IMG/VR virus record: IMGVR_UViG_3300018005_000012
Span: 1 to 64,000 of that record
Strand: one strand, 5' to 3'
From: a virus
DNA: 64,000 nucleotides
How positions within the stretch are numbered: position 1 is the first letter of the stretch; every line of letters starts with the position of its first letter. Of the stretch, positions 6,919-61,593 are shown in pieces. The notes under the pieces are model-generated. The model worked only from the letters and a program-made list of their open reading frames with translations. It searched no databases and was not told the origin of the DNA. The position numbers and the translations under genes were made by a program.

Positions 6919-7008
6919 ATGAATCGTAGACATTATAAGCAAGTATGTCCTAACACGGACTCAATGAACACAAACACCTTAAGCCAAGCGGGAGACCGAA
7001 ATAGATGA
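6919..7008 (+). CDS. Possible 29-aa peptide
   Basis: ATG-initiated frame MNRRHYKQVCPNTDS ending in a TGA that overlaps the next ATG (7005) in the ATGA arrangement used by neighbouring genes. The coupling is the main evidence; the peptide itself shows no recognisable feature. Confidence 0.3.
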   Translation: MNRRHYKQVCPNTDSMNTNTLSQAGDRNR

Positions 7009-7166
7009 CGTTATCAGACGACCTTCCAGTTAACTATATCCTCACTGAGATAAACGAGACTAAGAAGAGCCTCACTTACAAACAGGTTAAGCCCGAAGAG
7101 ATTCAGGACTTCACAAACGCAAGAAAAGCCCTTCAATCGTATGAAGACTTGGCGATTTTAGTATGA
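7005..7166 (+). CDS. Hypothetical helical protein, 53 aa
   Basis: Starts inside the preceding TGA and ends in an ATGA overlap with the first amidoligase gene, so the two are translationally coupled. Helical and Asn/Lys-rich. It could be a small partner or substrate of the amidoligase; that is only inferred from position. Confidence 0.6.
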   Translation: MTLSDDLPVNYILTEINETKKSLTYKQVKPEEIQDFTNARKALQSYEDLAILV

Positions 7167-8257
7167 CAAACCTTCCTCTAACGTTGGATTGCTTCATGAC
7201 CAACGAAACAACAACCGACACTTTACCAAGTAAAAAGTCAGGATGGATTATAGACGAAAAGCAAAAGACTAGAGAAGACTTCACCGAGTATCTAACAAAC
7301 CGTTTAATGGTCTGCCTAGAGATGGAACTGAATTACAAGACCGGAATACATGACAGCACTATAGAATCAGTCTCTAAAGATGAGTTCGGGGTTGATGCCA
7401 CCGAATACGGATTGCCCGAATGTCCAGTATGCGGAGAGAACGATTGCATTAGACACGACCCACCGAAGACCATCCGAGTGATAAGGCATGACTCCACGGT
7501 GAGAGGAAAGGAAATAATCGTGTGGGGAAGCCCAATATCAACGGAAGAGTTTGCAAAAAGACTCCCACTAGAAAATATCAAAAAATACTTCGTGCCAAGA
7601 CCCCAAGACTCACTACACACACACACACTGATTCCAAACCAGAATAAGGCAATTCCGATTCAAATTGCACAGAACACTTGGCAACTCTTTAGAGCCTATT
7701 ATCCTGCTTGGGTGCATATTTTCGGCAACTACAGAAAGCACTTTCTGAGAAGCAACTGGGCGCAGTGGAAGAATTACCAAGTGAACGCACTAGACACGGC
7801 TTGGTGGCCTTATGCGTGTCACAAATTTCAGGGTGGGCTTCACTTCGCAAATTGCAATAAGGACTACGATGGAAATCTCTCTTCATTCGATGCGGAAATT
7901 CGCACACAGGACGCAAGCACAAACCTAGAGCAAATCGTTTCAGCGAGAGCATTGAGCAAAGCGATTTTCCTTAAGGCCGCACAACTGAGCAATGAGGGAG
8001 TTATCGAGATGCCCGAAGAAAGGAAGGAAATCATTCTCCCAATAATTGAGGCATTGAATAGCGGATGTGCGAAAATTTGGAGAGAGGGCAAGAGGACTTA
8101 CGATATGGAATTAGAATCGAAGCATGGCCGATTCATGAAGGAACTGGCCGCAGAGTTCTTTAGCCAAGTCCGACCCTTACTCTCAGAGTTTGAGGCCAGA
8201 TGCGTGGGTAATTGCATTGCTAATCCTATTAGACTCAGGAGGACAAAATTCGCATGA
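7163..8257 (+). CDS. Amidoligase A (glutamine-synthetase-fold, Amidoligase_2-like), 364 aa
   Basis: Recognised by the metal-binding ExE strand (CLEMEL, E53/E55), the HxH strand (LHTHTL, H152/H154), a Trp/Phe/Tyr-rich helix (WQLFRAYYPAWVHIFGNY) and the DAEIRTQDA block (E245, R247). These match the putative amidoligase family related to glutamine synthetase and gamma-glutamylcysteine ligase, which makes amide bonds with ATP. A zinc knuckle C87-x2-C90-x4-C95-x2-H98 is inserted between the ExE and HxH strands. Its paralogue follows at 8549, and a class II GATase and an ATP-grasp ligase are downstream. It is coupled to both neighbours by ATGA overlaps. The substrate is unknown. Confidence 0.75.
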   Translation: MTNLPLTLDCFMTNETTTDTLPSKKSGWIIDEKQKTREDFTEYLTNRLMVCLEMELNYKTGIHDSTIESVSKDEFGVDATEYGLPECPVCGENDCIRHDPPKTIRVIRHDSTVRGKEIIVWGSPISTEEFAKRLPLENIKKYFVPRPQDSLHTHTLIPNQNKAIPIQIAQNTWQLFRAYYPAWVHIFGNYRKHFLRSNWAQWKNYQVNALDTAWWPYACHKFQGGLHFANCNKDYDGNLSSFDAEIRTQDASTNLEQIVSARALSKAIFLKAAQLSNEGVIEMPEERKEIILPIIEALNSGCAKIWREGKRTYDMELESKHGRFMKELAAEFFSQVRPLLSEFEARCVGNCIANPIRLRRTKFA

Positions 8258-8541
8258 CTACCGCAAAATCAAACCGACACATTAAAATACCCTGCGGTGA
8301 AGGTAGAGGCATGAGCAAATCGCAACCGATTCCACTAAAGGTAAAGAACGAAGGTAGAGTGTTCGCTATAACCCTAGCCGTTTCTAAGAATCGGCTTATT
8401 GAATTGCTTCACGGTGAGGGCATGGCAATGGGCGTTATTTCGGTGAGACGGGTCACGGAAGACGAAAAGGACGCACTTGAAGCGGCAAAAGAGGACAATG
8501 ACTATGCCAACACTAAAAGCGATTATGGATTCATGGAGTAA
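8254..8541 (+). CDS. Hypothetical protein between the two amidoligases, 95 aa
   Basis: Starts in an ATGA overlap with amidoligase A. A beta-rich middle (PIPLKVKNEGRVFAITLAV) and an acidic helical C-terminus ending KSDYGFME. Its place between two amidoligases makes it a candidate accessory subunit or acceptor protein, but no family is recognised. Confidence 0.65.
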   Translation: MTTAKSNRHIKIPCGEGRGMSKSQPIPLKVKNEGRVFAITLAVSKNRLIELLHGEGMAMGVISVRRVTEDEKDALEAAKEDNDYANTKSDYGFME

Positions 8542-8548
8542 ATAGAAA

Positions 8549-10123
8549 TTGCTCCCCACCGAGACGATTGAGTTCACAGAAGACCCGATAACGGCAGACG
8601 ACTTAAGCACTCACGAAGGAAGTGCGAGTCATTCCTCTTGTCCCTATTGCGGGGCGAAGGTTTCAAGTCACATGATACCCGAAGAGCCGGACACCGTGGA
8701 GCATGAGCATAGAATCATCGAAAACATACAGATTTGCCGAAGACTCTATGAATGTAATGCTCTAGGACTGACTAACCAATTCTACACTTATCAGGACTTG
8801 AACACTCTAACCAATTGGACTATTGCAAAGGTCGCACAGGGGAAGACCGAGAAAGCAGACGACACCGAGAGGCTTCAATTCGGAAAGAAGAAACTGGCCG
8901 AAGCCATCAAACCCATTTGGCGTTTCAAGACGAAGTTAGCCACGAAAGACGACTTCACCGATTATCTGGCCAAGAATCTAGTCTTAGGGCTAGAATTAGA
9001 GTTCGACTATAAGGATGCACTCGACCCAATTTCAGATTCCGCAGTAAAGCGAGCCTTCGGGGTTAGCACTACAGACTACCATCACCACCCTGAATGTCCG
9101 ATATGCGGAAACGAAATGTGCTGGAACCATCTTCCCGACAACCTGATAAGAGGCATCGAAAGAGATGCTTCAATTCGTGGGTGGGAGTTCTTAATCTACG
9201 GGAGCCATATCTCTAGCGAAGACTTTGCCAAACGTCTACCACTGGCCAAGTTTAGAGACCACTTCATAGTCAACGAGAGAGACGGACTCCACGTTCACGC
9301 CATGCTGAAACACGACATCGCCAGACTACCTAACGTTATCGTGAAGAATTTGTGGCAACTCTTCCGCTATTACTATCCGGCTTGGGTCAATCTCTTCGGC
9401 AACTATTCACAGAGTCAGGGATTCTTGAGACATTCGGGCTATAACGGCCATGACTATGTGACTTTCACATCATTCAGTAAATCGCCTTTCCTAACTCGGT
9501 GGGCACAGGACGTTAAGATGCAAAGATGTGCCCTTTACCTTAAGGAGACACCTATCGAGAACGAAGATATGGATTCATTTGACGTTGAGATTCGGACAAG
9601 TGATGGGAGCATGGATTTGGAACAACTCGTGGCCGTCAGGTCAATCACTAAAGCGTTGATATTGAGAGCCGCACAACTTAGCAACTTCGGACTCATCAGT
9701 GTAGAAAGCAACACCGAAACTTGGGAGAGGGTGAAGGATGTGGTTAGCAAAATCAATCTGAGGTCTGGATTCAAGAAAGACGACATTGAGTTCATGCAAA
9801 AGCATACAGTGAGTTTGGTTAGAGAATTGGCCCCGTTCCTTAGTGAGTTTGAGCGAACCTGCATTAAGCATCTACTTGAAAAACCAGTGAGAGAGCGAGA
9901 GAATCACCCGACATCACACGACTTAGGCTTAGACCTGAGCGAGAACGCCAAGCACCTTAAGAAACTAATTGCTGTCGGTGGCATTGAGACGGACACCGAA
10001 GAGGCGTGGTTCGGGAAGGTCGCACACATAATGGGTCTGCCAACTGACGAAGTTAAGACCGCACTTCGCCAACTAAAGGCGTATTTTGACAACGAAACAC
10101 ACCAAATGGTAGTGATTGGCTAA
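8549..10123 (+). CDS. Amidoligase B (Amidoligase_2-like), 524 aa
   Basis: Paralogue of the 7163-8257 product with the same core: LGLELEF (E149, E151), zinc knuckle C183-x2-C186-x4-C191-x2-H194, RGWEFLIYGS, DGLHVHAML (H248, H250), WQLFRYYYPAWVNLFGNY and FDVEIRTSDGSMDLEQL (E347, R349). It differs by a longer N-terminus carrying a CPYC zinc-ribbon half and His residues, and by a C-terminal extension of about 70 residues that looks like a winged helix. TTG start 7 nt after the previous stop; the GATase ATG follows its stop directly. It presumably forms an amide bond using ammonia or an amino donor from the adjacent GATase. Confidence 0.8.
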   Translation: MLPTETIEFTEDPITADDLSTHEGSASHSSCPYCGAKVSSHMIPEEPDTVEHEHRIIENIQICRRLYECNALGLTNQFYTYQDLNTLTNWTIAKVAQGKTEKADDTERLQFGKKKLAEAIKPIWRFKTKLATKDDFTDYLAKNLVLGLELEFDYKDALDPISDSAVKRAFGVSTTDYHHHPECPICGNEMCWNHLPDNLIRGIERDASIRGWEFLIYGSHISSEDFAKRLPLAKFRDHFIVNERDGLHVHAMLKHDIARLPNVIVKNLWQLFRYYYPAWVNLFGNYSQSQGFLRHSGYNGHDYVTFTSFSKSPFLTRWAQDVKMQRCALYLKETPIENEDMDSFDVEIRTSDGSMDLEQLVAVRSITKALILRAAQLSNFGLISVESNTETWERVKDVVSKINLRSGFKKDDIEFMQKHTVSLVRELAPFLSEFERTCIKHLLEKPVRERENHPTSHDLGLDLSENAKHLKKLIAVGGIETDTEEAWFGKVAHIMGLPTDEVKTALRQLKAYFDNETHQMVVIG

Positions 10124-11797
10124 ATGTGTAGACTAGCACTGATAATCTCGAAAATTCCAGTCAATCGGTTCGAGACCGCATTCAAGTCGGCTTGGGCTGA
10201 TGGCAATGACGATGGCGTGGGAATTTACTGGCGAGACATGGAAGGAACACGACACTTGGCTAGATTCCCGAAGTCGGCAGACTTGGCGAAGGTCGGGACA
10301 ACTTATGACCGAATGCTGATTCACTTCCGCAAATCCACGAAGGGCGAAGGGACTCATCCCTTCACTTGTAAAGACAGACCCAAACTTGACAGTAGAAATT
10401 GGCTTCTCGTTCATAATGGATGTGTGGCAGACGGTGAGGCTAGGAAGGAATTAGAGAAGACCCACACATTTTCGACAGAGATAGACAGCGAGATTTTCAT
10501 TCACATTTGGGGAGAGATTAAGGAAAAAGACTTAGCGAAGAGAGCCAAGAAATTCAGTGAGGCCAGAGAAAAGTTGGGGATAACAGGGTGGGCGAACCTG
10601 ATTTTCTACAACGTGATTTCGGATGAATGGGTCGCATTTAGCGATGGCTCGATAGGTTTTGTTTACAACAAAGATACGCTAATAATTTGCTCGGATGACA
10701 CATGGTTCGACACGATAGAGGCCACCAAACGGAAGATTCACAACTTGGTCTTAGCCACTGGCGATATTGCTTACGGAAAGGGATTGAAGTATAAGGTAAA
10801 GGAGGGCGTTTGGAAGATTCGCTCTGCTATACCGACAACTTCGGCCAGTCTTACAAACGTAGACGGAAGGGCACTTTACCGTGGGTGCGGCATGGACGCA
10901 GATGTGTGGGAGCCAGCGTATGATAAGCCAACACAGAGAAAAGAAGCCGGATGGGATGCCACTGAAAGGTCATTCGTAGATACGAAGGGAAACGCATTAA
11001 ATTGGGATGCTAGTAAACGGGCCTTCGTGGATGCAAAGGGGTATCCCGTAGACAGCAACTACACCCAATATGGCAACCCTAACGGACACTATTTCACACC
11101 TTCAGAGTTCACAGACCAGAATAACGATGAGTATTGCGACATTTGTTTCATGACTAGAGAGTATCACACTCTTAAACCCGCACTTGATAATGACGGGGAT
11201 GACGGAGACGAAGATGCACGAGAGAGAGAGACAGCCGAGATTGACAGTATCGCAAACAGCCGCATTGACGAAAGCGTTTGGAATAGGCCACACCCGTTCA
11301 CTCGCAACTTCAATAAGGGAACCATCACTTGTATGTGTGGTTCAACGGTAAGTTATGGGACATTGCACTTGGCTCACGAGTTCAAGCCTATCATAGCCAA
11401 GAACGGTAAACCAACTTCATATTGTTTCGTTTGTGGCAACATGAAGACTATGGGAAACCATAAGGAAGAAAACTCTGAAACTCACTTCTTTACCCCTCTG
11501 AGATTTGAAGTTAACCAAAGCAACGGCTCGACAACTTATATAGATTCACCCATTTGTGGACGGTGCGGATTCAGAAACGAAGTCCATCCTATGTCTTATA
11601 ACGTTCAAATCAAACAATCTACACAGAGTAGCGAGACAATGAGAGTTGAACGCATGAGGCCGATGGGTTGCGGTTGCAAACCTGACGAGAGACCACAACC
11701 TATTATTTGCACTTATCACTGGGGTCAGGGATTTAGAGATGCAGACAATCAGGGCTATCTCGTCAAAAAGATAGCATTCGATAGTGGGGCAGAGTAA
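10124..11797 (+). CDS. Class II glutamine amidotransferase fused to zinc ribbons, 557 aa
   Basis: Begins MCRLALI, giving the N-terminal nucleophile Cys2 after Met removal. Other class II (Ntn) motifs are present: DDGVGIYW (residues 29-36), HFR (67-69), VHNGCV (H97-N98-G99) and DSE (121-123). The first 220 residues form the glutaminase domain. The C-terminal half has a twofold repeat (GWDATERSFVD, NWDASKRAFVD, about residues 281-310) and at least five Cys/His clusters (CDIC, CMCG, CFVCG, CGRCG, CGC). It releases ammonia from glutamine, presumably for the neighbouring ligases. No synthetase domain is fused, so the acceptor is undefined. Confidence 0.8.
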   Translation: MCRLALIISKIPVNRFETAFKSAWADGNDDGVGIYWRDMEGTRHLARFPKSADLAKVGTTYDRMLIHFRKSTKGEGTHPFTCKDRPKLDSRNWLLVHNGCVADGEARKELEKTHTFSTEIDSEIFIHIWGEIKEKDLAKRAKKFSEAREKLGITGWANLIFYNVISDEWVAFSDGSIGFVYNKDTLIICSDDTWFDTIEATKRKIHNLVLATGDIAYGKGLKYKVKEGVWKIRSAIPTTSASLTNVDGRALYRGCGMDADVWEPAYDKPTQRKEAGWDATERSFVDTKGNALNWDASKRAFVDAKGYPVDSNYTQYGNPNGHYFTPSEFTDQNNDEYCDICFMTREYHTLKPALDNDGDDGDEDARERETAEIDSIANSRIDESVWNRPHPFTRNFNKGTITCMCGSTVSYGTLHLAHEFKPIIAKNGKPTSYCFVCGNMKTMGNHKEENSETHFFTPLRFEVNQSNGSTTYIDSPICGRCGFRNEVHPMSYNVQIKQSTQSSETMRVERMRPMGCGCKPDERPQPIICTYHWGQGFRDADNQGYLVKKIAFDSGAE

Positions 11798-11798
11798 A

Positions 11799-12356
11799 TT
11801 GGTAGACATCTATATTCGTAAGTCGGGACAGGATGAGAGCCAAATTCCAAAGGGCATCAAGATAAAGGATGATGATAAAAAGATTCGGATTGCGGGAGCC
11901 GTTATCAGAGTCACAGTCATGCCACGGAGATATGGGAATGACTACAAGATTTCGGTTTGGCTTCCAAACGGAAAGCAACTAGAGGCCAGCGATGAGCATG
12001 GGTATATCAACTTCGTGGACTTCGCTAAGGGACTCGTTGAGGCCGCAACTGGAACCAAGCCAAAGGACGGGACAGAGAAGAAGGTTGTGGACATCAACGG
12101 ATTCCCCGCTAAAATCAGTGAGCGAGAGGATGACAAAACCATGACCATTGAAGCAACCATTGACCCATTAGACGAGAACTACTCGATGCCTAAGAAGGAA
12201 GAGGTCAAACCCATTATGCCCCAAGTCCAGAATCAGCCAAGTCTACCTGAGAGAATCAGGGCAGATATGTCAGACGCAAACAAACAGAAGGAGGGCGAAA
12301 CCATTGAAGAATGGGTGGCTCGATTGCAAGATGACGACTTTAGGGGGTATGCCTAG
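11799..12356 (+). CDS. Hypothetical protein in amidoligase cassette, 185 aa
   Basis: TTG start in the junction TAA-A-TTG. N-terminal beta-rich domain (KIRIAGAVIRVTVMPRRYG, KISVWLPNG), then an acidic linker and a helical C-terminus ending DDDFRGYA. The next ATG follows the stop directly. It could be an acceptor protein or ssDNA-binding-like factor, but I recognise no family. Confidence 0.65.
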   Translation: MVDIYIRKSGQDESQIPKGIKIKDDDKKIRIAGAVIRVTVMPRRYGNDYKISVWLPNGKQLEASDEHGYINFVDFAKGLVEAATGTKPKDGTEKKVVDINGFPAKISEREDDKTMTIEATIDPLDENYSMPKKEEVKPIMPQVQNQPSLPERIRADMSDANKQKEGETIEEWVARLQDDDFRGYA

Positions 12357-12755
12357 ATGCCATCAGGAATCACGAGACGAAGTATAGATAACTACCAAAG
12401 ACTGGTAGCGGGATATAGGCGAAGTGTGGGCAAGTTCATAGCCAATTACAAGAGTCTCGCACCCAAGATAGACATACTGTGCAGACTGATGGAAGCACAA
12501 AAACTTTTCACGATGACTAAGAAGTGGGGCAACCCCATACAAAGGGATGAGGTTATGAGGCTATTTAAGATTCGTTCACTAGGCATTTTCCTTCAATGTA
12601 GATGTGACGATTCGGAATGCAGTTGGGCAAACTACGATGAGGGGGAAGATGTGACCTATTGCGAGTGCATCGCTAACAATGAGATGGGTTGCCGTGGACT
12701 TTTTGTGGTGGCATTTGACCATGAGGGCAACGTATTAGGATACGAAGTAGAATGA
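12357..12755 (+). CDS. Cys-cluster protein, 132 aa
   Basis: Helical N-terminal 75 residues, then a Cys-rich module: LQCRCDDSECSWANY followed by YCECIANNEMGCRG. The same arrangement (C-x-C-x4-C-x-W, then C-x-C-x6-7-C) recurs in the next gene, so the two are partial paralogues. It is probably a zinc-binding fold. ATGA overlap with the next gene. Confidence 0.65.
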   Translation: MPSGITRRSIDNYQRLVAGYRRSVGKFIANYKSLAPKIDILCRLMEAQKLFTMTKKWGNPIQRDEVMRLFKIRSLGIFLQCRCDDSECSWANYDEGEDVTYCECIANNEMGCRGLFVVAFDHEGNVLGYEVE

Positions 12756-13768
12756 TACTCAAACTCGGCTTCGGAGAGACCTGTGCTGTGAAAGAGTTAG
12801 AGTTGGCCCACGAAGAATTAGTAAACCACACTTCGCCAAATGAGCGAGACATTCAGACTTACGCATTGACTGAGACAGTCCGACTTCTCAACTTTAGAGT
12901 GCGGTGTATGTGTCATGATGTAAGATGTAATTGGTGGGACAGAGGGGCTTGTAGATGCAACGGGGCTTTGAATTGTCTACATATAGGCTTCGAGATAAGG
13001 AATACTGATGAAATAAATCTAATCACAGACGGGGAAACGGAAACGGCCAAGAGACAGATTCCTCAAGACCATTTGGAACGACAACCCAACGAAGCCTTCA
13101 TTGTTTGGAAGGTCAGGGTGGCTTACGAAGTCTACCAAAGGGCCAGTGAGATTCATAATATGCCAGAGGATGGCATAGTTCAGTATCGGTATGAGAATTG
13201 GAGAGAGGAACCCATTGACGAAAGACGCAACAACTTCGAGAGAACGGTGAACGATGTGAGAGGGATAGGGGTTGAGAGACATGGCAACATGAGCCAAGTG
13301 GTGGGTTGCTTCTCATGTGGCAGAATCTTCGAGAACGAAACCTATCTCAATGCTCATGTTGATTTGCACAGATACAGGGAAGAGGTTGACCACACCTTTG
13401 CACAAATAGTCACACCTATTTCCGTCTCTTCAGTAAGAGCAACTCCACCCGACTACCGACCACCTATCCCCGTTGTCGCACCCACACCCACACCAACAAG
13501 ACGGCCAAGAGCAATCCATCGTAGTCCCATACGAATTGACCAAATAGACCGAGAATCAGACGAGAGTGATGACCACTTTAGAGAGGCCGTTGCAAACTTC
13601 GTTGAAGACATTAGAGGTGGAGATGGAGACCGTGGCGAATTTCCAGAGGCAGTGGGTTGTTCCTTATGCGGTGCTGTCTACACAACTGAGAGCGACTACT
13701 TCGCCCATGCAGTTGATGACCACGTTCTCACCCTTTCAGAATCAGAGAGATATGAGGTAAACCCATGA
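12752..13768 (+). CDS. Multi-zinc-finger protein, 338 aa
   Basis: The N-terminal region carries a Cys module (RCMCHDVRCNWWDRGACRC, about residues 50-68) homologous to that of the preceding gene. Two classical C2H2 fingers follow: CFSCGRIFENETYLNAHVDLH (C-x2-C-x12-H-x3-H) and, at the C-terminus, CSLCGAVYTTESDYFAHAVDDH (last spacing x4). A Pro/Thr/Arg-rich linker separates them. Likely a DNA- or RNA-binding regulator. ATGA overlaps couple it to both neighbours, including the ATP-grasp gene. Confidence 0.75.
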   Translation: MILKLGFGETCAVKELELAHEELVNHTSPNERDIQTYALTETVRLLNFRVRCMCHDVRCNWWDRGACRCNGALNCLHIGFEIRNTDEINLITDGETETAKRQIPQDHLERQPNEAFIVWKVRVAYEVYQRASEIHNMPEDGIVQYRYENWREEPIDERRNNFERTVNDVRGIGVERHGNMSQVVGCFSCGRIFENETYLNAHVDLHRYREEVDHTFAQIVTPISVSSVRATPPDYRPPIPVVAPTPTPTRRPRAIHRSPIRIDQIDRESDESDDHFREAVANFVEDIRGGDGDRGEFPEAVGCSLCGAVYTTESDYFAHAVDDHVLTLSESERYEVNP

Positions 13769-14550
13769 CCCCTCTCATTGTCTTCGTAGATTGTGGTCTC
13801 TCGCTCTCAGAAACGCCAGACCGCATTATCTCACGGCTTGAAGAGAAGGGACTAAGAGTTGTGAGGAATCCACGAGAGAGACCCACTGAAGACTATGTGG
13901 TGATTCGATGGGGGTCGGCCAGATTCCCTGAGTTGGATGCGACAGCGAAAGCCGTCCTCAACTCTGCCGAAGCCATCGAATCCAATCTCCATAAGAACAG
14001 GGCACACGCCAAATTTTTAGAGGCCGAAGTCAGTGCCCCGCTATTCTGGCGAACCTTTAGAGAGGCAAGAGAAGAGTGCCGAAGGTTAGGGTGCGACTTC
14101 CTGCGGAGACGCACACACCACATTCAGGGTCGGGACATCATTCGCCTAAGTCCTACTGACCACTTGAAACGTAGACAGAGAAGTGGATACTACGTTCAAT
14201 ACATAGAGAAGGATGCAGAGTTCAGACTTCACATCTTCGGAGACAAGTGCATAGGCTTGGCCGAAAAGAAGCCAAAGGAGAATCCTAACAAGACTATTTG
14301 GAACTTTGAAAATGGGTGGGATTTAGTCTACTACCCACAAGAGGATAGAGAGAGTGAGGTTCCCCACTACAACAAGATGGTGGCTGAATCGGTAAAGGCA
14401 TTGAAGAGTCTGGGTCTGGACTTTGGTGCGGTGGACTTGATAATGTGCGGAGACAAACCGTATATCCTAGAGGCTAACACGAGTCCTAAGTTGTATCAGA
14501 CCAAACGCTACACCAAGCATTTCGAGAGATGGGTGGAGAGCCAAGCATGA
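13765..14550 (+). CDS. ATP-grasp ligase (RimK/COOH-NH2 ligase-like), 261 aa
   Basis: The C-terminal ATP-grasp signature is clear: GAVDLIMCGDKPYILEANTSP (D224, E236, N238), preceded by the YYVQYIEKDAEFRLHIFGD block that contributes nucleotide-binding residues. The N-terminal 80 residues form the pre-ATP-grasp part. Enzymes of this group join a carboxylate to an amine with ATP via an acyl phosphate. With two amidoligases and a glutaminase in one operon it probably completes a pathway that adds amino acids or small peptides to a target. The target is not evident. Confidence 0.75.
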   Translation: MTPLIVFVDCGLSLSETPDRIISRLEEKGLRVVRNPRERPTEDYVVIRWGSARFPELDATAKAVLNSAEAIESNLHKNRAHAKFLEAEVSAPLFWRTFREAREECRRLGCDFLRRRTHHIQGRDIIRLSPTDHLKRRQRSGYYVQYIEKDAEFRLHIFGDKCIGLAEKKPKENPNKTIWNFENGWDLVYYPQEDRESEVPHYNKMVAESVKALKSLGLDFGAVDLIMCGDKPYILEANTSPKLYQTKRYTKHFERWVESQA

Positions 14551-14786
14551 GACCTGAAGCAATCCGTCACTTGGAAATCTACCGAAGACCTATCTGGGGT
14601 TGCCGTTGCACAGAGGATAGTGTGAAGGGTATGGAGACCGAAGGAACGAAGACCGAGAGTATATGGGAATTTCTACTAGATGAAGTTAAACCAAGTGACC
14701 ATTTGCCGTGGTGGGAATGGTGCGCTCAAAAAGACTTGATGGAAGAGCAAATGATTCTCAACTACTCGGATGGGTATGGCGCATGA
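14547..14786 (+). CDS. Hypothetical acidic Trp-rich protein, 79 aa
   Basis: ATGA overlap with the ATP-grasp gene. Contains WGCRC near the N-terminus and a WWEWC motif later, so it may bind metal. Acidic overall; ends SDGYGA. It may belong to the amidoligase cassette. Unknown family. Confidence 0.55.
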   Translation: MRPEAIRHLEIYRRPIWGCRCTEDSVKGMETEGTKTESIWEFLLDEVKPSDHLPWWEWCAQKDLMEEQMILNYSDGYGA

Positions 14787-27691: not shown

Positions 27692-29632
27692 TTATCGCCC
27701 TGCATGGGTGTTAAGATGATTGAGATAGTCTTTCTCATACTTGAAAGCCTGCCCATCGAACTCACAACGGAAGGCCCCCTCTTGCTTCTCTGCCTCTGGT
27801 TCTTCAGTGGGTTCCTCTTCAGGTGGCTCTCCTTCAGGTGGGAGTTCGGGTTCCTTACCCCCCTCGCCAATAGATGGCGTGGGTGGCCCCTTCTCCTTTG
27901 GCTCGCTAGGTTCCTTCCCCTTCTCTGGCTCTGGCTCTTTGCCCTTCTCCTTATCCTTCCCCTTCGGCTTCTTGGGTGGAGTAGGCTTTGCAGTAGGCTT
28001 GGTAGTAGGCTTCTCAGGAACCTTACCCACCCACATCTGTTCTCCATTGTGGAAGAGGATGGCCTCAAACTCCTGAAGGTCACGGAAGACTGTTTCATCC
28101 TGTGCAAACCAATCAATCAGAACGTCCAAGTCCTGAGGTAGAATGTGTTGGAAAGTGAAGATGTAGGGCGAGTTGGCTAGGATGTCCTTGTTAACATCAG
28201 CCGTTCTTCGAGCCGCAAAGATGCCGCCCACATTGTAGTTACGACCAACGTTGACCAACTCATTGAGCATACTTCCGGGCTTGGAGTTGTAACGGTCAAC
28301 CTCGTCCAACACTATCATACAATCTCCTCTCTCCAATGCTGCATAGATTATCTCATCTACACCCGCTTGGTCGGAAGGCGTGACCTGATGATAGTCTATG
28401 TTTGGCTGACCATTATACTCAGCAAAATTACCAAGAGCATCCAATAGGATAAACTGATAGTCCTTAAGGATGTCCGATAGAAGCACCTTGATGAGATTGG
28501 TCTTGCCCGAACCCGTCTTACCGAGTATGGTAATCTTGTCCGAGACATCAACCTCAAGTTTGGGCTTCTCTTTGCTCTTCGCTTCTACAGTCGCAGGGTC
28601 AGTGCCAGCGACCTTCTGGGCCTCTGGCGAGAGTTGGGACTCAGGCTCCTTGCCCTTATCCTTCTCTGCAATGCGTGGGTCTTTGAGTTCCTCGGTTTTC
28701 CGACCTTGATATTCGCTATGACCACACTCATCGCAAATCCATGAGTTTGTATCTCCACCATAATAAGACATCGCACCCCCACATTCAGGACAGACCACTT
28801 CCTCGCTCTTAGACTGCCCTTCTTTTTGCTCTTTGATAACCTCGTTACAATCTGCACAGTTGTTAGGGCAGACATCATTATCCATAACACACTCTACACA
28901 AGAAGGTTCACAATCCAAAGAATATTCTTTCTTACCATAGGTTTTTGATTCCCAATCTCGTTGTGGAAAACAGGTAGGGCATTCGGCATATCTTCCTTCA
29001 TGATGCAGTATCTTGTGTTCTTCCTCACTGAACTGGGCTTCGCCTGTGAACTCTGAACTCTCTTCCTGAAGTTCGTCTCCATTATCTTCATCTGGCCCAA
29101 ACTCCAATTCAATGAAGTCTTCAACATCTCCAATTGGATACGAGTAACCACACTGAGAGCAAACCCACTTCCCCGCCTTCAGTGCGTCTGCTTGCTCTTC
29201 TGGCCCCATAGCCCACGGAAAGCCACAGTCGGGACAATCGAAGAGAATGTAATCATCAACATCGCCCTCTCCCTTACCAGTAGGTGCTGTCATTTGAGTG
29301 CTAGTAGGAGTGAATTGGCTCTGAGTGAATGGACTAACATTCTGTTGTGTAGTGGGGTTCAATTGCTGAGAAGGGTCGCCTTGGCTCTGTCCTTCCCAAC
29401 CCTGTCCTGTTGAAGCGTCACCCTGCTCACCATACCACTTCTCTTTCCATTCTGGATGATGCTGAAGAACGTGCTTGTCCATGTCCTCACTAGCCATCTC
29501 AGCCAAGTCCTGCCCACAGTCTGGGCAGACGGTATCAGAAGACGACTGTTCAAATCTAACAGGGTCAGAAGGCTTGGAGCCAACACGGTGGTTAGGCCAA
29601 TCTAAGACTTTCCTCACACTTTTGTCACTCAA
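27692..29632 (-). CDS. HerA/FtsK-like P-loop ATPase with zinc fingers, 646 aa
   Basis: The ATPase core is clear: Walker A ILGKTGSGKTNLIK (371-378) and Walker B CMIVLDEVDRY (D443, E444), with FAARRTADVNKDILANSPYI as the following sensor region. This matches HerA/FtsK-type DNA translocases. N-terminal 310 residues hold five or more zinc sites (CPDCGQD with H-x4-H, CPDCGFP/CSQCGY, CPTC, CEPSCVEC, CPECGG/CDECGH). After the ATPase comes a Pro/Lys/Glu-rich linker and a terminal C2H2-like finger (CEFDGQAF...HLNTH). It could pump DNA, segregate genomes or act with nucleases. Its coexistence with a terminase is unusual. Confidence 0.75.
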   Translation of the reverse strand: MSDKSVRKVLDWPNHRVGSKPSDPVRFEQSSSDTVCPDCGQDLAEMASEDMDKHVLQHHPEWKEKWYGEQGDASTGQGWEGQSQGDPSQQLNPTTQQNVSPFTQSQFTPTSTQMTAPTGKGEGDVDDYILFDCPDCGFPWAMGPEEQADALKAGKWVCSQCGYSYPIGDVEDFIELEFGPDEDNGDELQEESSEFTGEAQFSEEEHKILHHEGRYAECPTCFPQRDWESKTYGKKEYSLDCEPSCVECVMDNDVCPNNCADCNEVIKEQKEGQSKSEEVVCPECGGAMSYYGGDTNSWICDECGHSEYQGRKTEELKDPRIAEKDKGKEPESQLSPEAQKVAGTDPATVEAKSKEKPKLEVDVSDKITILGKTGSGKTNLIKVLLSDILKDYQFILLDALGNFAEYNGQPNIDYHQVTPSDQAGVDEIIYAALERGDCMIVLDEVDRYNSKPGSMLNELVNVGRNYNVGGIFAARRTADVNKDILANSPYIFTFQHILPQDLDVLIDWFAQDETVFRDLQEFEAILFHNGEQMWVGKVPEKPTTKPTAKPTPPKKPKGKDKEKGKEPEPEKGKEPSEPKEKGPPTPSIGEGGKEPELPPEGEPPEEEPTEEPEAEKQEGAFRCEFDGQAFKYEKDYLNHLNTHAGR

Positions 29633-41890: not shown

Positions 41891-42081
41891 TTCCCTTCTA
41901 TCTCTTAGTCAATCAAGTGGAACTTGCTCGTGCAAAACACGCCAAGTGCCCTAGTAAGCACTCGTGGAATTTAGAGATTGATACTTGCAAAGACTGTGGA
42001 ATCTTGAGAGAAGAATACGAGGACTTCATCGTTGCAAAACTTACCTTAAGAGAGGCGTTTGGAATTGATACCATTCGATAG
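41785..42081 (+). CDS. Zinc-ribbon protein, up to 98 aa, probably the body of the preceding LANQxEL gene
   Basis: Contains CPSKHSWNLEIDTCKDCGIL, a zinc-ribbon-like module, after an aromatic beta-rich part (LGFYNLRINNDSNLYVWDAP). The only upstream start in this frame is GTG 41785 inside the 41741 frame. Joining the two frames by a -1 shift near CCGTGGTGGTC would give an ordinary LANQxEL zinc protein. Overlaps the polymerase start by 23 nt. Confidence 0.55.
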   Translation: MVVTLGFYNLRINNDSNLYVWDAPYPCLKRGDFRMIPFYLLVNQVELARAKHAKCPSKHSWNLEIDTCKDCGILREEYEDFIVAKLTLREAFGIDTIR

Positions 42082-44173
42082 TGCGACCTATACCACACAG
42101 AACGGGAAGGTCAAGATGAAGGTCTATAGGAATGGAGAGGTCGAACTCATAGACCCCACACCCATGCCCTACTGTTACGCCCCGGCCAAGTATGAGATTC
42201 AGACGCAAGCCAAGATGACGAGAACAGACTTCAGGACTTTCGATACGGGAGAGGGCGTGAAGAGATACACCTTCCCACAGCCTATGAACGTAAAGGCGTT
42301 CCGTTCATTCCAAGAGGCGAAGGGCATTCCTATCTATGAAGCCGACAAAAAGTATGTTGGAGTTTGGATGGCAGACAATGAGTTCGTATGCGATGACTAT
42401 CCTAACCAAGCCGCATGGGACACAGAAGAAGACGACTCGAAAGCCAAGCCCGACCCAGAGACGGCCAACGTTCCAATCACAGCCATAGGCATAGTCTATA
42501 AGGGCCAGAGGTATGCGTGGACTGGTATAGAGAAGGAGATTCTTAAGGGGGCAGTGGACTTCATAGTGGAGAACAAGATTCATATGTTGAAGGGTTGGAA
42601 CACCCACTTCTGGGACGTTCCTTTCTTCGCCAAACGACTGGCCTTTGCGGGTATCAAATTCGACTTCAGTTCCGTCAGGTTCCTAGACTTAGCCCTCTGC
42701 TATCGTTTCATGGAAAAGAACTTCCGAAGTCAGTGGTCGTTGGAGAAGGTAGGCAGACGACTGTTCAATGAGCAGAAGCCCTTCGTCAATACCAGACTCA
42801 GCACCCTACCGCCAGAGCAACTAAAGGAGAGGGTGTTGTGGGATGCGGAGATGACTAATAGGATAGACGATAAGAAGGGGTATACTGGGGTGGCTACACA
42901 ACTGGCCAAGCAGAGCCATATCTTTCCAGACCAGATATTCGGAATCCACCCCCTCAAGAAGTCCATCACCATTACTCCTGTCTTAGACCAATACTTTCTG
43001 CGGTATGCCCATAAGATTAACTATGTATTACCATGTAAGTCGGGGTATAAGCAGAGGCCAAAATATACAGGAGCATGGGTCGAAGTCTTCGAGCAAGGGT
43101 TCTTTGAGGATGTGCTACAGTATGATGTAGACTCCCTATATCCCAACATCATCCTAGCGTATAAGTTGGCCCCATTGAACAGGTTCGAGTTGGTGGAACC
43201 TATCGTCAAAGACCTGCTTGCTGGCAAGCGAAACGCTAAAGACGAGGTAGAGAGATGGGCTATGAAAATCACGGTCAATGCCCTGTATGGTCTCTTCGCT
43301 AGTTCTTACTACAGATTTAAGGCCGTAGAGGTGGCAGATGCTATAACCTACCACGGAAGGGACATCGTTACCCATACAGCAGAGTTCCTAAGAAGTATGG
43401 GTTATACGGTCTACTACATAGATACGGACTCTTGCTTCGTGAAGGGTAAGTTCGATGAGGCGGAGACTATAAGAGACCTGATGAACACTTATATTCAGAG
43501 GACATACAACGTGGACAATATCAAGTTCGGGTTGGAGAACGATTGGAGGCTGCTCGGATTCCCAAGAGGAGCCAAAGGAGAGAAGACCAAGAAGCGTTAC
43601 TATGGTATAGTCCATGTCAACAAGAAGGGTGAAGTGGTGGACAAGTTTGAAGAGGCTGGCATGGAAGGGTTGCGTGGAGATTGGTGCGAGTTGGCGAGGA
43701 ACGTGCAAGACGCAATCAAGAGGTTCCAAGTCACAAAGGTTCCGAAGGAGAAGATGCTTGAGTTCTATGAGGATACGAAAGTCAACTTATACAAAGGACT
43801 CTACGACCCCCTTCTGGTTATGGAGAAACATATGGGGAAGGATGTCTCAGAGTATGGTCAAATGAAGAAGGATGAGAAGACGGGGAAGATAAGAAAGATG
43901 CCCACCCCACAACACGTTAAGGCTTTGCGAGATGCGATGGAACATGGATGGGTTCCCAACGATATGGTTCAGTATGGTGTGGTTCAATACTATATGTGTA
44001 GAGGAGCCATACCCAAACTGGTCAATCTAGTGAAGCAGGGTGAGATAGACTATGCTTGGTATTGTAGTCACCAGATAGACCCCATAGTGTGGAGACTTGG
44101 CCTCATCGAAGAGATGACCAAGTATAAGAAGGAGAAGGTTCAGCCATCAGACCAAACAACTCTTGTTTCTTGA
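42059..44173 (+). CDS. polB: Family B DNA polymerase, 704 aa
   Basis: Exonuclease motifs: AAWDTEEDD (D121, E123) and GWNTHFWDVPFF (N181-D186). Polymerase motifs: A QYDVDSLYPNII (D356), B KITVNALYGLFAS (403-411) and C YYIDTDSCF (D455, D457), with a KKRYYG motif later. So both proofreading and synthesis are intact. At 704 residues it is short for cellular PolB, as usual in viruses. TTG start overlapping the preceding gene; it converges with an HNH gene at 44147. It should replicate the viral genome with the primase and helicase. Confidence 0.95.
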   Translation: MELIPFDSATYTTQNGKVKMKVYRNGEVELIDPTPMPYCYAPAKYEIQTQAKMTRTDFRTFDTGEGVKRYTFPQPMNVKAFRSFQEAKGIPIYEADKKYVGVWMADNEFVCDDYPNQAAWDTEEDDSKAKPDPETANVPITAIGIVYKGQRYAWTGIEKEILKGAVDFIVENKIHMLKGWNTHFWDVPFFAKRLAFAGIKFDFSSVRFLDLALCYRFMEKNFRSQWSLEKVGRRLFNEQKPFVNTRLSTLPPEQLKERVLWDAEMTNRIDDKKGYTGVATQLAKQSHIFPDQIFGIHPLKKSITITPVLDQYFLRYAHKINYVLPCKSGYKQRPKYTGAWVEVFEQGFFEDVLQYDVDSLYPNIILAYKLAPLNRFELVEPIVKDLLAGKRNAKDEVERWAMKITVNALYGLFASSYYRFKAVEVADAITYHGRDIVTHTAEFLRSMGYTVYYIDTDSCFVKGKFDEAETIRDLMNTYIQRTYNVDNIKFGLENDWRLLGFPRGAKGEKTKKRYYGIVHVNKKGEVVDKFEEAGMEGLRGDWCELARNVQDAIKRFQVTKVPKEKMLEFYEDTKVNLYKGLYDPLLVMEKHMGKDVSEYGQMKKDEKTGKIRKMPTPQHVKALRDAMEHGWVPNDMVQYGVVQYYMCRGAIPKLVNLVKQGEIDYAWYCSHQIDPIVWRLGLIEEMTKYKKEKVQPSDQTTLVS

Positions 44174-60039: not shown

Positions 60040-61593
60040 ATGAGCAGTGTGAACGAAAGGCTCCTTAAGACCATAGAAACCGAGTTCGGTCAAATCAAGG
60101 ACATACAGCCAAAGGACGTAGAGTTAGACCTTAGTGACCCCGTTACATTTGTTGAGAAGTATGTGACCCTGCCAGAGAAGGCCCCACCCGAACAGAAGAC
60201 TTGGTTCGAGAAGCGGCCTTGGCTTCCAGAACTCTACCGAGATGAGAGCAAACGAATCGTCATAGTCAAGGGCAGACAGATGGAAGTCTCCGAGTATGCT
60301 GTCAATATGCTCTTCTATTGGGGTCTCAAGTGGCCGGGAAAGTATATCTACGCTTCATCTTCGGGTGAGAAGGCAGACAACTTCAGCCACGATAGGTTCC
60401 AAAAGCAACTGCTCCGAAGCCCCACTCTTCAAGCCCTCACAAGAGGGCAGGCTGTCAGAAGGATTGTCTATGGCAACTCTCAACTCTACTTCATGACAGG
60501 CTATGAAGACACCAAAACCTTGAGAAGCATTGACGCTGATGGCATCATTCTAGACGAGTTCCAAGACTATAGAGCCAACTCCGTCCCTATCGCAGAAGAG
60601 GGCATCCAACACAGTGCTCTGAAGAGGCTGTGGGTAATCGGAACGCCTCTGCTAACCGGAACCAACTTCTCCAATCTCTGGGATAACAGCACAAAGAAGG
60701 AATGGAAGGTGGATAAACAAGTGTGGGAAGTGGAGAATCCTGAGTCCGATAAGGCATGGACTGGATACCACATCAGTCAAGATTTCGCTGTGAATGTCTG
60801 GATTACACCAGAAGACATGGAATACAGACGCAAGAAGAAGCCACGACAGGAGTTCATGAACGAGGTCTTGGGGCTATTCTATGCTGGTCTTGGCAGACCA
60901 ACTGACTACGGTTACATGAGAACCCTCTTCAGTCCGGTCTTGACGAAGGGACAGTTTGCGGCAAACGATTTGCTACTGGCTGGTGTAGATTGGGGTGTCT
61001 CAAAGGCCAACACCGTCTTCTACGTCATCCGTCCCCGCCTCTTGGAGTTACCAGACATCTACACTCTCGACACCATCTACATCGAGAAGGTGGAAGACCC
61101 AGACCTCACCAAACAGATTACCAGAGTGGCCACCCTGCTCAAGACCTTTCCCATAAGACTAGCCATGCTAGACTATGGTTCAGGCTTCGTCCAGAATCAG
61201 ACACTCTTCAAGGAGTTCGGCAATCGTGTGATGCAAGTGGAGTTGGGCAGTGGCAAAGCGGGCCAACCCATCACCATTGAAAACACACCTTTTGGCAGAT
61301 TTGTGAAGGTGAACAGAACGTGGGCCATTGACACGGCTATGGATTACGTCACCAAACCAGAGAGGTTCAGAATCTACAGTGAGGTAGATGAAGGAACACG
61401 AGACTGGATTATCAGCGACTTCCTAGCGGAGTATCCAGAGAACAGCACGACTACGGGCAAGAAGATATGGGTTCACAACCCCGATACCACCGATGACGTT
61501 CTCATGGCCTTCGTCAACGCTGTAATAGGCTTCCACCTTCAGAAGGGCTCCACGGTATCGGGAAATGCCGAAGACTGGATTTCCTTCGTCTAG
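60040..61593 (+). CDS. terL: Terminase large subunit, 517 aa
   Basis: ATPase: a deviant Walker A VKGRQMEVSEY (77-84, with K-x-R-Q-M as in TerL but E instead of the usual G) and Walker B DGIILDEFQDY (D172, E173). The EFMNEVLGLFYAGLGRP linker is typical of terminases, and the nuclease domain starts with LLAGVDWGVSKANTV, with later Asp residues (AMLDYGSG, TTDDVLMAF). It packages DNA through the portal. Size fits the family. Confidence 0.9.
   Translation: MSSVNERLLKTIETEFGQIKDIQPKDVELDLSDPVTFVEKYVTLPEKAPPEQKTWFEKRPWLPELYRDESKRIVIVKGRQMEVSEYAVNMLFYWGLKWPGKYIYASSSGEKADNFSHDRFQKQLLRSPTLQALTRGQAVRRIVYGNSQLYFMTGYEDTKTLRSIDADGIILDEFQDYRANSVPIAEEGIQHSALKRLWVIGTPLLTGTNFSNLWDNSTKKEWKVDKQVWEVENPESDKAWTGYHISQDFAVNVWITPEDMEYRRKKKPRQEFMNEVLGLFYAGLGRPTDYGYMRTLFSPVLTKGQFAANDLLLAGVDWGVSKANTVFYVIRPRLLELPDIYTLDTIYIEKVEDPDLTKQITRVATLLKTFPIRLAMLDYGSGFVQNQTLFKEFGNRVMQVELGSGKAGQPITIENTPFGRFVKVNRTWAIDTAMDYVTKPERFRIYSEVDEGTRDWIISDFLAEYPENSTTTGKKIWVHNPDTTDDVLMAFVNAVIGFHLQKGSTVSGNAEDWISFV

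Follow-up and report, generated by a model that had tools for sequence, protein, structure and literature searches.

The bacteriophages LUZ24, PaP3, tf, UFV-P2, PA11, TC6, RIO-1 and phiEco32 carry a cassette in which an amidoligase with glutamine synthetase (GS) fold, a class II glutamine amidotransferase (GATase) and a RimK-like ATP-grasp ligase are encoded in the same direction. This cassette has been named the peptidoglycan modification module, with reference to Iyer and Hardies (PMC5498523, PMC6256558, PMC10580990), and the papers citing its first description attribute it to Iyer et al. 2009. In LUZ24, the genes gp16 to gp21 encode, in this order, a COOH-NH2 ligase, a small protein, an amidoligase, a GATase, a small protein and RimK (domains named from the UFV-P2 counterpart, PMC3890496); the same enzyme order is found in UFV-P2 and, with variations, in TC6. 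In phage HP1, the predicted module genes are expressed first in infection (PMC7082346). Class II GATases are also present in archaeal viruses, namely as stand-alone proteins in the haloarchaeal viruses phiCh1 and ChaoS9, and the text of the 2021 survey of archaeal tailed viruses names no amidoligase and no ATP-grasp (PMC8651126). Here we report a cassette of nine genes in the IMG/VR virus record IMGVR_UViG_3300018005_000012 (91,434 bp), the first 64 kb of which are referred to as the window (coordinates are window positions unless marked otherwise). Judged from its sequence, this cassette appears to be a divergent archaeal-virus branch of the phage amidoligase/ATP-grasp/class II GATase cassette.

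The enzymes encoded are two amidoligases (A and B), a class II GATase and an ATP-grasp ligase, all co-directed as in the phages and in the order seen in LUZ24. The system is thus not new in kind: bacteriophages are already known to carry these enzymes in this order (PMC3890496, PMC5498523). The new part is the branch itself, with its duplicated ligase and three conserved companion proteins (p190, p132 and p338); a zinc knuckle in the ligases and a probable archaeal host also distinguish it from the phage version. A ligase (amidoligase or COOH-NH2 type) together with a GATase was found near the ATP-grasp gene in 40 of the 44 IMG/VR loci with full flanks, and the amidoligase was co-directed with the ATP-grasp in 56 of 57 cases.

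Both ligases are real GS-fold amidoligases, since motifs, fold comparison and profile comparison agree. Ligase A contains E53ME, D110STVRGKE, H152TH and EIRTQD at 245 as well as CPVCGENDCIRH at 87, and ligase B contains E149LE, D206ASIRGWE, H248VH and EIRTSD at 347 as well as CPICGNEMCWNH at 183. With 36-38% identity the two proteins are paralogues. Their motifs ExE, D..RG.E, HxH and EIR follow one another as they do in phage Amidoligase_2 proteins. Across nine sequences, drawn from four virus lineages and a contig of a metagenome-assembled genome (MAG), these motifs do not vary, apart from the central R in D..RG.E and the I in EIR. The structural model of ligase B reaches predicted local distance difference test (pLDDT) values of 70-90 over most of the core; the mean is only 62 because the N-terminus is not resolved. 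In a fold search against the PDB, each of the top 19 matches was Dop or an entry for GS, YbdK or a related glutathione synthetase (best E 1.4e-4), and the named top matches among viral proteins were mostly annotated amidoligases, including that of Pseudomonas phage tf. The template modelling scores of these matches were low (0.2-0.5), so that the fold class is supported but a close relationship is not. GS, YbdK and Dop have the same fold as ligase B but are 9-13% identical to it in the alignments, and they differ from it in length, zinc insert and C-terminal region.

In a profile-profile comparison, the ligase profile matched nine phage Amidoligase_2 proteins with E 2e-4. The trimmed profiles scored 37.0, compared with maxima of 24.5 in 100 column shuffles and 35.0 in 100 block shuffles. 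Earlier comparisons with four and five sequences from close relatives were indecisive, as block shuffles matched the score, and the match became convincing only after more divergent rows had been added. The initial annotation had proposed two paralogous GS-fold amidoligases, which fold and profile comparison now recognise and whose motifs are kept in the relatives; it had named wrong folds or lost catalytic residues as observations that would contradict it, and neither was found. It had also described a zinc knuckle in both ligases, which is correct for the two paralogues of this virus but does not extend to ligase A of the relative L058. A similarity of the ligases to LysW-like zinc ribbons was considered and was not significant.

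The ATP-grasp ligase carries LEANTSP at 235, matches PHROG 2599 (annotation: S6 glutaminyl transferase) with E 9.8e-33, and is homologous to proteins of 291 phage records (tblastn, to 2e-19). Residues K149, R154, K168, D224, E236 and N238 are invariant among nine ATP-grasp sequences and are shared with the phage proteins. The LExN motif is common to the RimK, MvdD and MptN ligases, but matches to these families were weak and far below the curated cut-offs; the closest relatives are the phage proteins. In the tree, all ATP-grasps from the four virus lineages group together (100% in the Shimodaira-Hasegawa-like approximate likelihood ratio test), far from the phage proteins.

The GATase shows the N-terminal MCR, HFR67, HPF78, HNG97 and DSE121. 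It matched Pfam GATase_6 with E 5.7e-6 (26.8 bits, curated cut-off 27) and also GATase_4, and its profile matched that of the phage cassette GATases with E 4.7e-6; tblastn found no match in named phages. An AlphaFold2 model was poor (mean pLDDT 33.8) and was not used. The catalytic residues (Cys2 and the glutamine-binding Arg, HNG and Asp) are invariant in five sequences, for G001 and L056/L057 only if the protein starts at AUC. In these two lineages the codon preceding the catalytic Cys codon is ATC and not a usual start codon (L001:11688; L056:2001 / L057:3515). An in-frame stop is located upstream, TAG three codons away in L056/L057 and TAA 16 codons away in G001, with no ATG, GTG or TTG between. 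Furthermore, ATCTGTAGAATGGC is identical in the G001 and L056/L057 lineages despite widely different proteins. The simplest reading of these sequences is that the GATase begins at AUC there; perhaps this serves to keep the GATase level low. Thus, what had been annotated as a class II GATase with Cys2, HNG and DSE and as an ATP-grasp with L-E-A-N-T-S-P has been borne out, for the first by its motifs, the GATase_6 match and invariance in relatives, and for the second by its motif, PHROG 2599 and the shared catalytic residues.

The cassette is conserved in other viral genomes. In G001 (105,748 bp), the operon is identical in gene order, the enzymes are 66-82% identical and their ratio of nonsynonymous to synonymous substitution rates (dN/dS) is 0.11-0.15; for all operon genes where it could be computed, dN/dS lies between 0.11 and 0.35, with ligase B and the ATP-grasp most constrained. 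A search with the ATP-grasp alignment identified L056, L057 and L058 (a contig of 106,907 bp). L056 and L057 were counted as one lineage because they are 99.9% alike over 4 kb. Both ligases, GATase, p190, p132, p338 and ATP-grasp are present in L057 and L058, the last three reordered, whereas L056 begins after ligase A. The co-occurrence of the gene set in related genomes, by which the first annotation was to be judged, was thus found in a second virus and two further lineages. A further locus, the 4.2-kb contig L019 of a Thaumarchaeota MAG, encodes ligase B, GATase and a p190-like protein in unchanged order. It was the only positive contig in 400 Nitrososphaeria genomes, and it is therefore probably viral DNA binned with the MAG. 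A cellular origin of the cassette in Nitrososphaeria was rejected, as one of 400 genomes was positive and this with a virus-like contig only; chance motif matches are ruled out by conservation, purifying selection and fold.

In GS-fold amidoligases and RimK-like ATP-grasp ligases, ATP activates a carboxylate as acyl-phosphate, which is then joined to an amine. Class II GATases use their N-terminal cysteine to hydrolyse glutamine, releasing ammonia. We estimate at about 70% the probability that the locus belongs to the phage cassette as a divergent branch in archaeal viruses and conjugates amide or peptide units to an acceptor other than murein. Amino-acid units would be added to this acceptor through amide bonds, one after the other, by the two amidoligases and the ATP-grasp; the acceptor might be a protein or a molecule of the host surface. 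The GATase would deliver ammonia or trim glutamine amides. As has been suggested for the phage cassette, the purpose could be to take over the host or to keep competing viruses out. Alternatively, the product might be a free small molecule, for instance a gamma-glutamyl peptide or another short peptide, or the cassette might scavenge nitrogen in infection, instead of a macromolecule being modified. GS-fold, ATP-grasp and class II GATase enzymes are typical of small-molecule synthesis, and the title of the 2009 description, as cited by PMC10580990, contains the words 'novel metabolites'; the conserved zinc-rich companion proteins, however, suggest a macromolecular partner, and we regard a small-molecule product as improbable. 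DNA base modification was also considered as purpose of the cassette, and no evidence for it was found.

The companion proteins bear on the nature of the acceptor. The end of p190 is G-Y-x in all four virus lineages, although the region preceding it is variable in both sequence and length. Since it is conserved in the four lineages with this end in all of them, p190 is a candidate acceptor, though only a candidate. p132 and the N-terminus of p338 contain a common domain with six invariant cysteines, which from the sequences makes the two genes the second duplicated pair in the operon, and p338 in addition has two matches to C2H2-type fingers (Pfam zf-C2H2, E 8.6e-5, just below the cut-off); both proteins could bind targets. 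It is conceivable that p190 has amino acids attached to its C-terminus by the ligases or serves them as a carrier, comparable in principle to Pup or LysW, with p132 and p338 as adaptors. The retention of all three proteins in the four lineages and of the p190 terminus would fit, as would the presence of Dop, an enzyme that handles Pup, among those with the GS fold. Nevertheless, three shared residues are thin evidence when the four lineages are related, the L019 relative (a weak match) does not end in G-Y-x, no significant similarity to Pup or LysW was detected, and none of the three companions is recognisable in the phage cassettes, all of which makes such tagging unlikely. The complete scheme, in which the two GS-fold ligases and the RimK-like ligase act on p190 while p132 and p338 choose the target, is still less probable, and no viral conjugation system resembling those of Pup or LysW is known to us. 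As to the genes proposed earlier as acceptors or adaptors, those at 11799 and 12357 are kept in four lineages and that at 8254 in three of four (it was not found in L058), but the small open reading frame (ORF) at 14529, listed there as 14547, had no match among the related loci and is not a conserved part of the cassette.

Whether the acceptor can be murein depends on the host. A murein cell wall is absent from most archaea. The record contains a gene for ribosomal protein uS2 outside the window (L003:11026-11706, minus strand, about 75026-75706 of the record). The protein is of the archaeal/eukaryotic type (TIGR01012, E 2e-38, below the curated cut-off, versus 2e-13 for the bacterial model), and its PDB matches begin with archaeal-type 30S chains. 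uS2 was also identified in G001 (83%) and G615 (55%), hence in three genomes of the group (G000, G001 and G615). Compared with the solved archaeal uS2 chains, the viral protein has an internal insertion. As the first ribosomal protein of an archaeal virus, L21e has been reported by the 2021 survey (PMC8651126). Because of the archaeal-type uS2 in three genomes and the relative in the Thaumarchaeota MAG contig, the host is likely an archaeon; the assignment to an archaeal virus made at first sight is hence likely although not proven. The portal protein had no match in named phages and the polymerase gave no informative host signal. With an archaeon as likely host, murein is an unlikely acceptor.

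Carried over from the homologous phage module, the interpretation in the literature (PMC5498523, PMC10580990, PMC6256558) would imply that peptide links of the wall are altered to block superinfection, either in murein or, in a methanogen host, in pseudomurein. Glutamyl isopeptide links do occur in pseudomurein. Furthermore, the comparison of uS2 covered PDB chains and genomes of Thermoproteota, the sole archaeal phylum searched, and a methanogen host with pseudomurein is therefore conceivable. On the other hand, the archaeal-type uS2 speaks against a bacterial host, and among cellular genome bins a relative was found only in a Thaumarchaeota MAG, a group not known to have murein or pseudomurein. 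Wall modification thus seems to us an unlikely function here.

Several observations weigh against conjugation onto a non-murein acceptor by a branch of the phage cassette. The two amidoligases had no Pfam hit, none of the nine ligase members, scanned singly, matched PF12224 (Amidoligase_2), and tblastn with ligase B found no match in named phages. The second ligase of the phage cassette is of the COOH-NH2 ligase type 2 (PF14395), whereas the second ligase here showed no match to this profile and is an internal duplicate of the first; gene content also varies among some of the phage modules described. For the gamma-glutamyl cyclotransferase that often accompanies the phage module, the Pfam scan of operon genes, which covered part of the small neighbours, gave no match. 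In the uS2 tree the viral protein forms a long branch placed in no class. Finally, biochemical proof of the phage module function was not found in the literature searched, nor is there any for the archaeal-virus cassette.

The nine genes are located on the plus strand between 7005 and 14550 with intergenic spacing of -4 to +7 nucleotides (Table 1), and the four enzyme genes lie in one tightly coupled operon with the positions and motifs initially assigned to them. For the gene at 11784/11799, the alignment to relatives begins at 11799.

Table 1. Genes of the cassette in the window and their conservation.
Gene product	Position	Strand	Conservation and support
Leader ORF, 53 aa, overlaps start of ligase A	7005..7166	+	G001 identity 65%, E 5e-16; L058 match weak
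Amidoligase A, 364 aa	7163..8257	+	GS fold via homology to ligase B; also in G001, L057, L058
95-aa protein between the ligases, last residue Glu	8254..8541	+	Kept in G001, L056/L057; dN/dS 0.23
Amidoligase B, 524 aa, GS fold, N-terminal and internal zinc-binding stretches	8549..10123	+	In G001, L056, L057, L058, L019
Class II GATase (Cys2, HNG, DSE), 557 aa, Cys-rich C-terminal region	10124..11797	+	GATase_6; phage GATase profile
p190, companion protein	11799..12356	+	Four virus lineages; C-terminus G-Y-[A/W/Y]
p132, companion protein, six-cysteine domain common to p338	12357..12755	+	Four virus lineages; Cys invariant
p338, companion protein, six-cysteine domain and two C2H2-type zinc-finger matches	12752..13768	+	Four virus lineages
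RimK-like ATP-grasp ligase, 261 aa	13765..14550	+	PHROG 2599; phage homologues; catalytic residues

Elsewhere in the window, two packaging-type ATPases are encoded, a HerA/A32-like protein with zinc-ribbon matches (27692-29632, minus strand) and a separate gpA-like terminase (60040-61593, plus strand), as well as a family B DNA polymerase (42059-44173, plus strand). A separate RNase H-like/exonuclease gene (L003:13954-14610, minus strand) may be the proofreading part of the family B DNA polymerase, and an archaeal RecJ-like DHH protein (L003:12550-13737, minus strand) was matched with E 1.7e-11, below the curated cut-off. The small ORFs at L001:16410 and L056:8769 have the N-terminal peptide MQVLR(T/A)HKDEDSELVVRK in common and diverge after it; perhaps this is a repeated leader or a mobile segment.

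The phage cassette is widespread and has been described as peptidoglycan modification, and its version in probable archaeal viruses calls the assumption of a wall function into question. It also adds an amide-ligation system that is absent from the text of the 2021 survey of archaeal tailed viruses (PMC8651126). If the host has no murein, the published function cannot be general. A conserved and selected version in probable archaeal viruses would mean either a function not confined to the wall or enzymes redirected to another acceptor. In both cases, a long-standing guess can now be tested, namely by an acceptor that is common to hosts with and without murein.

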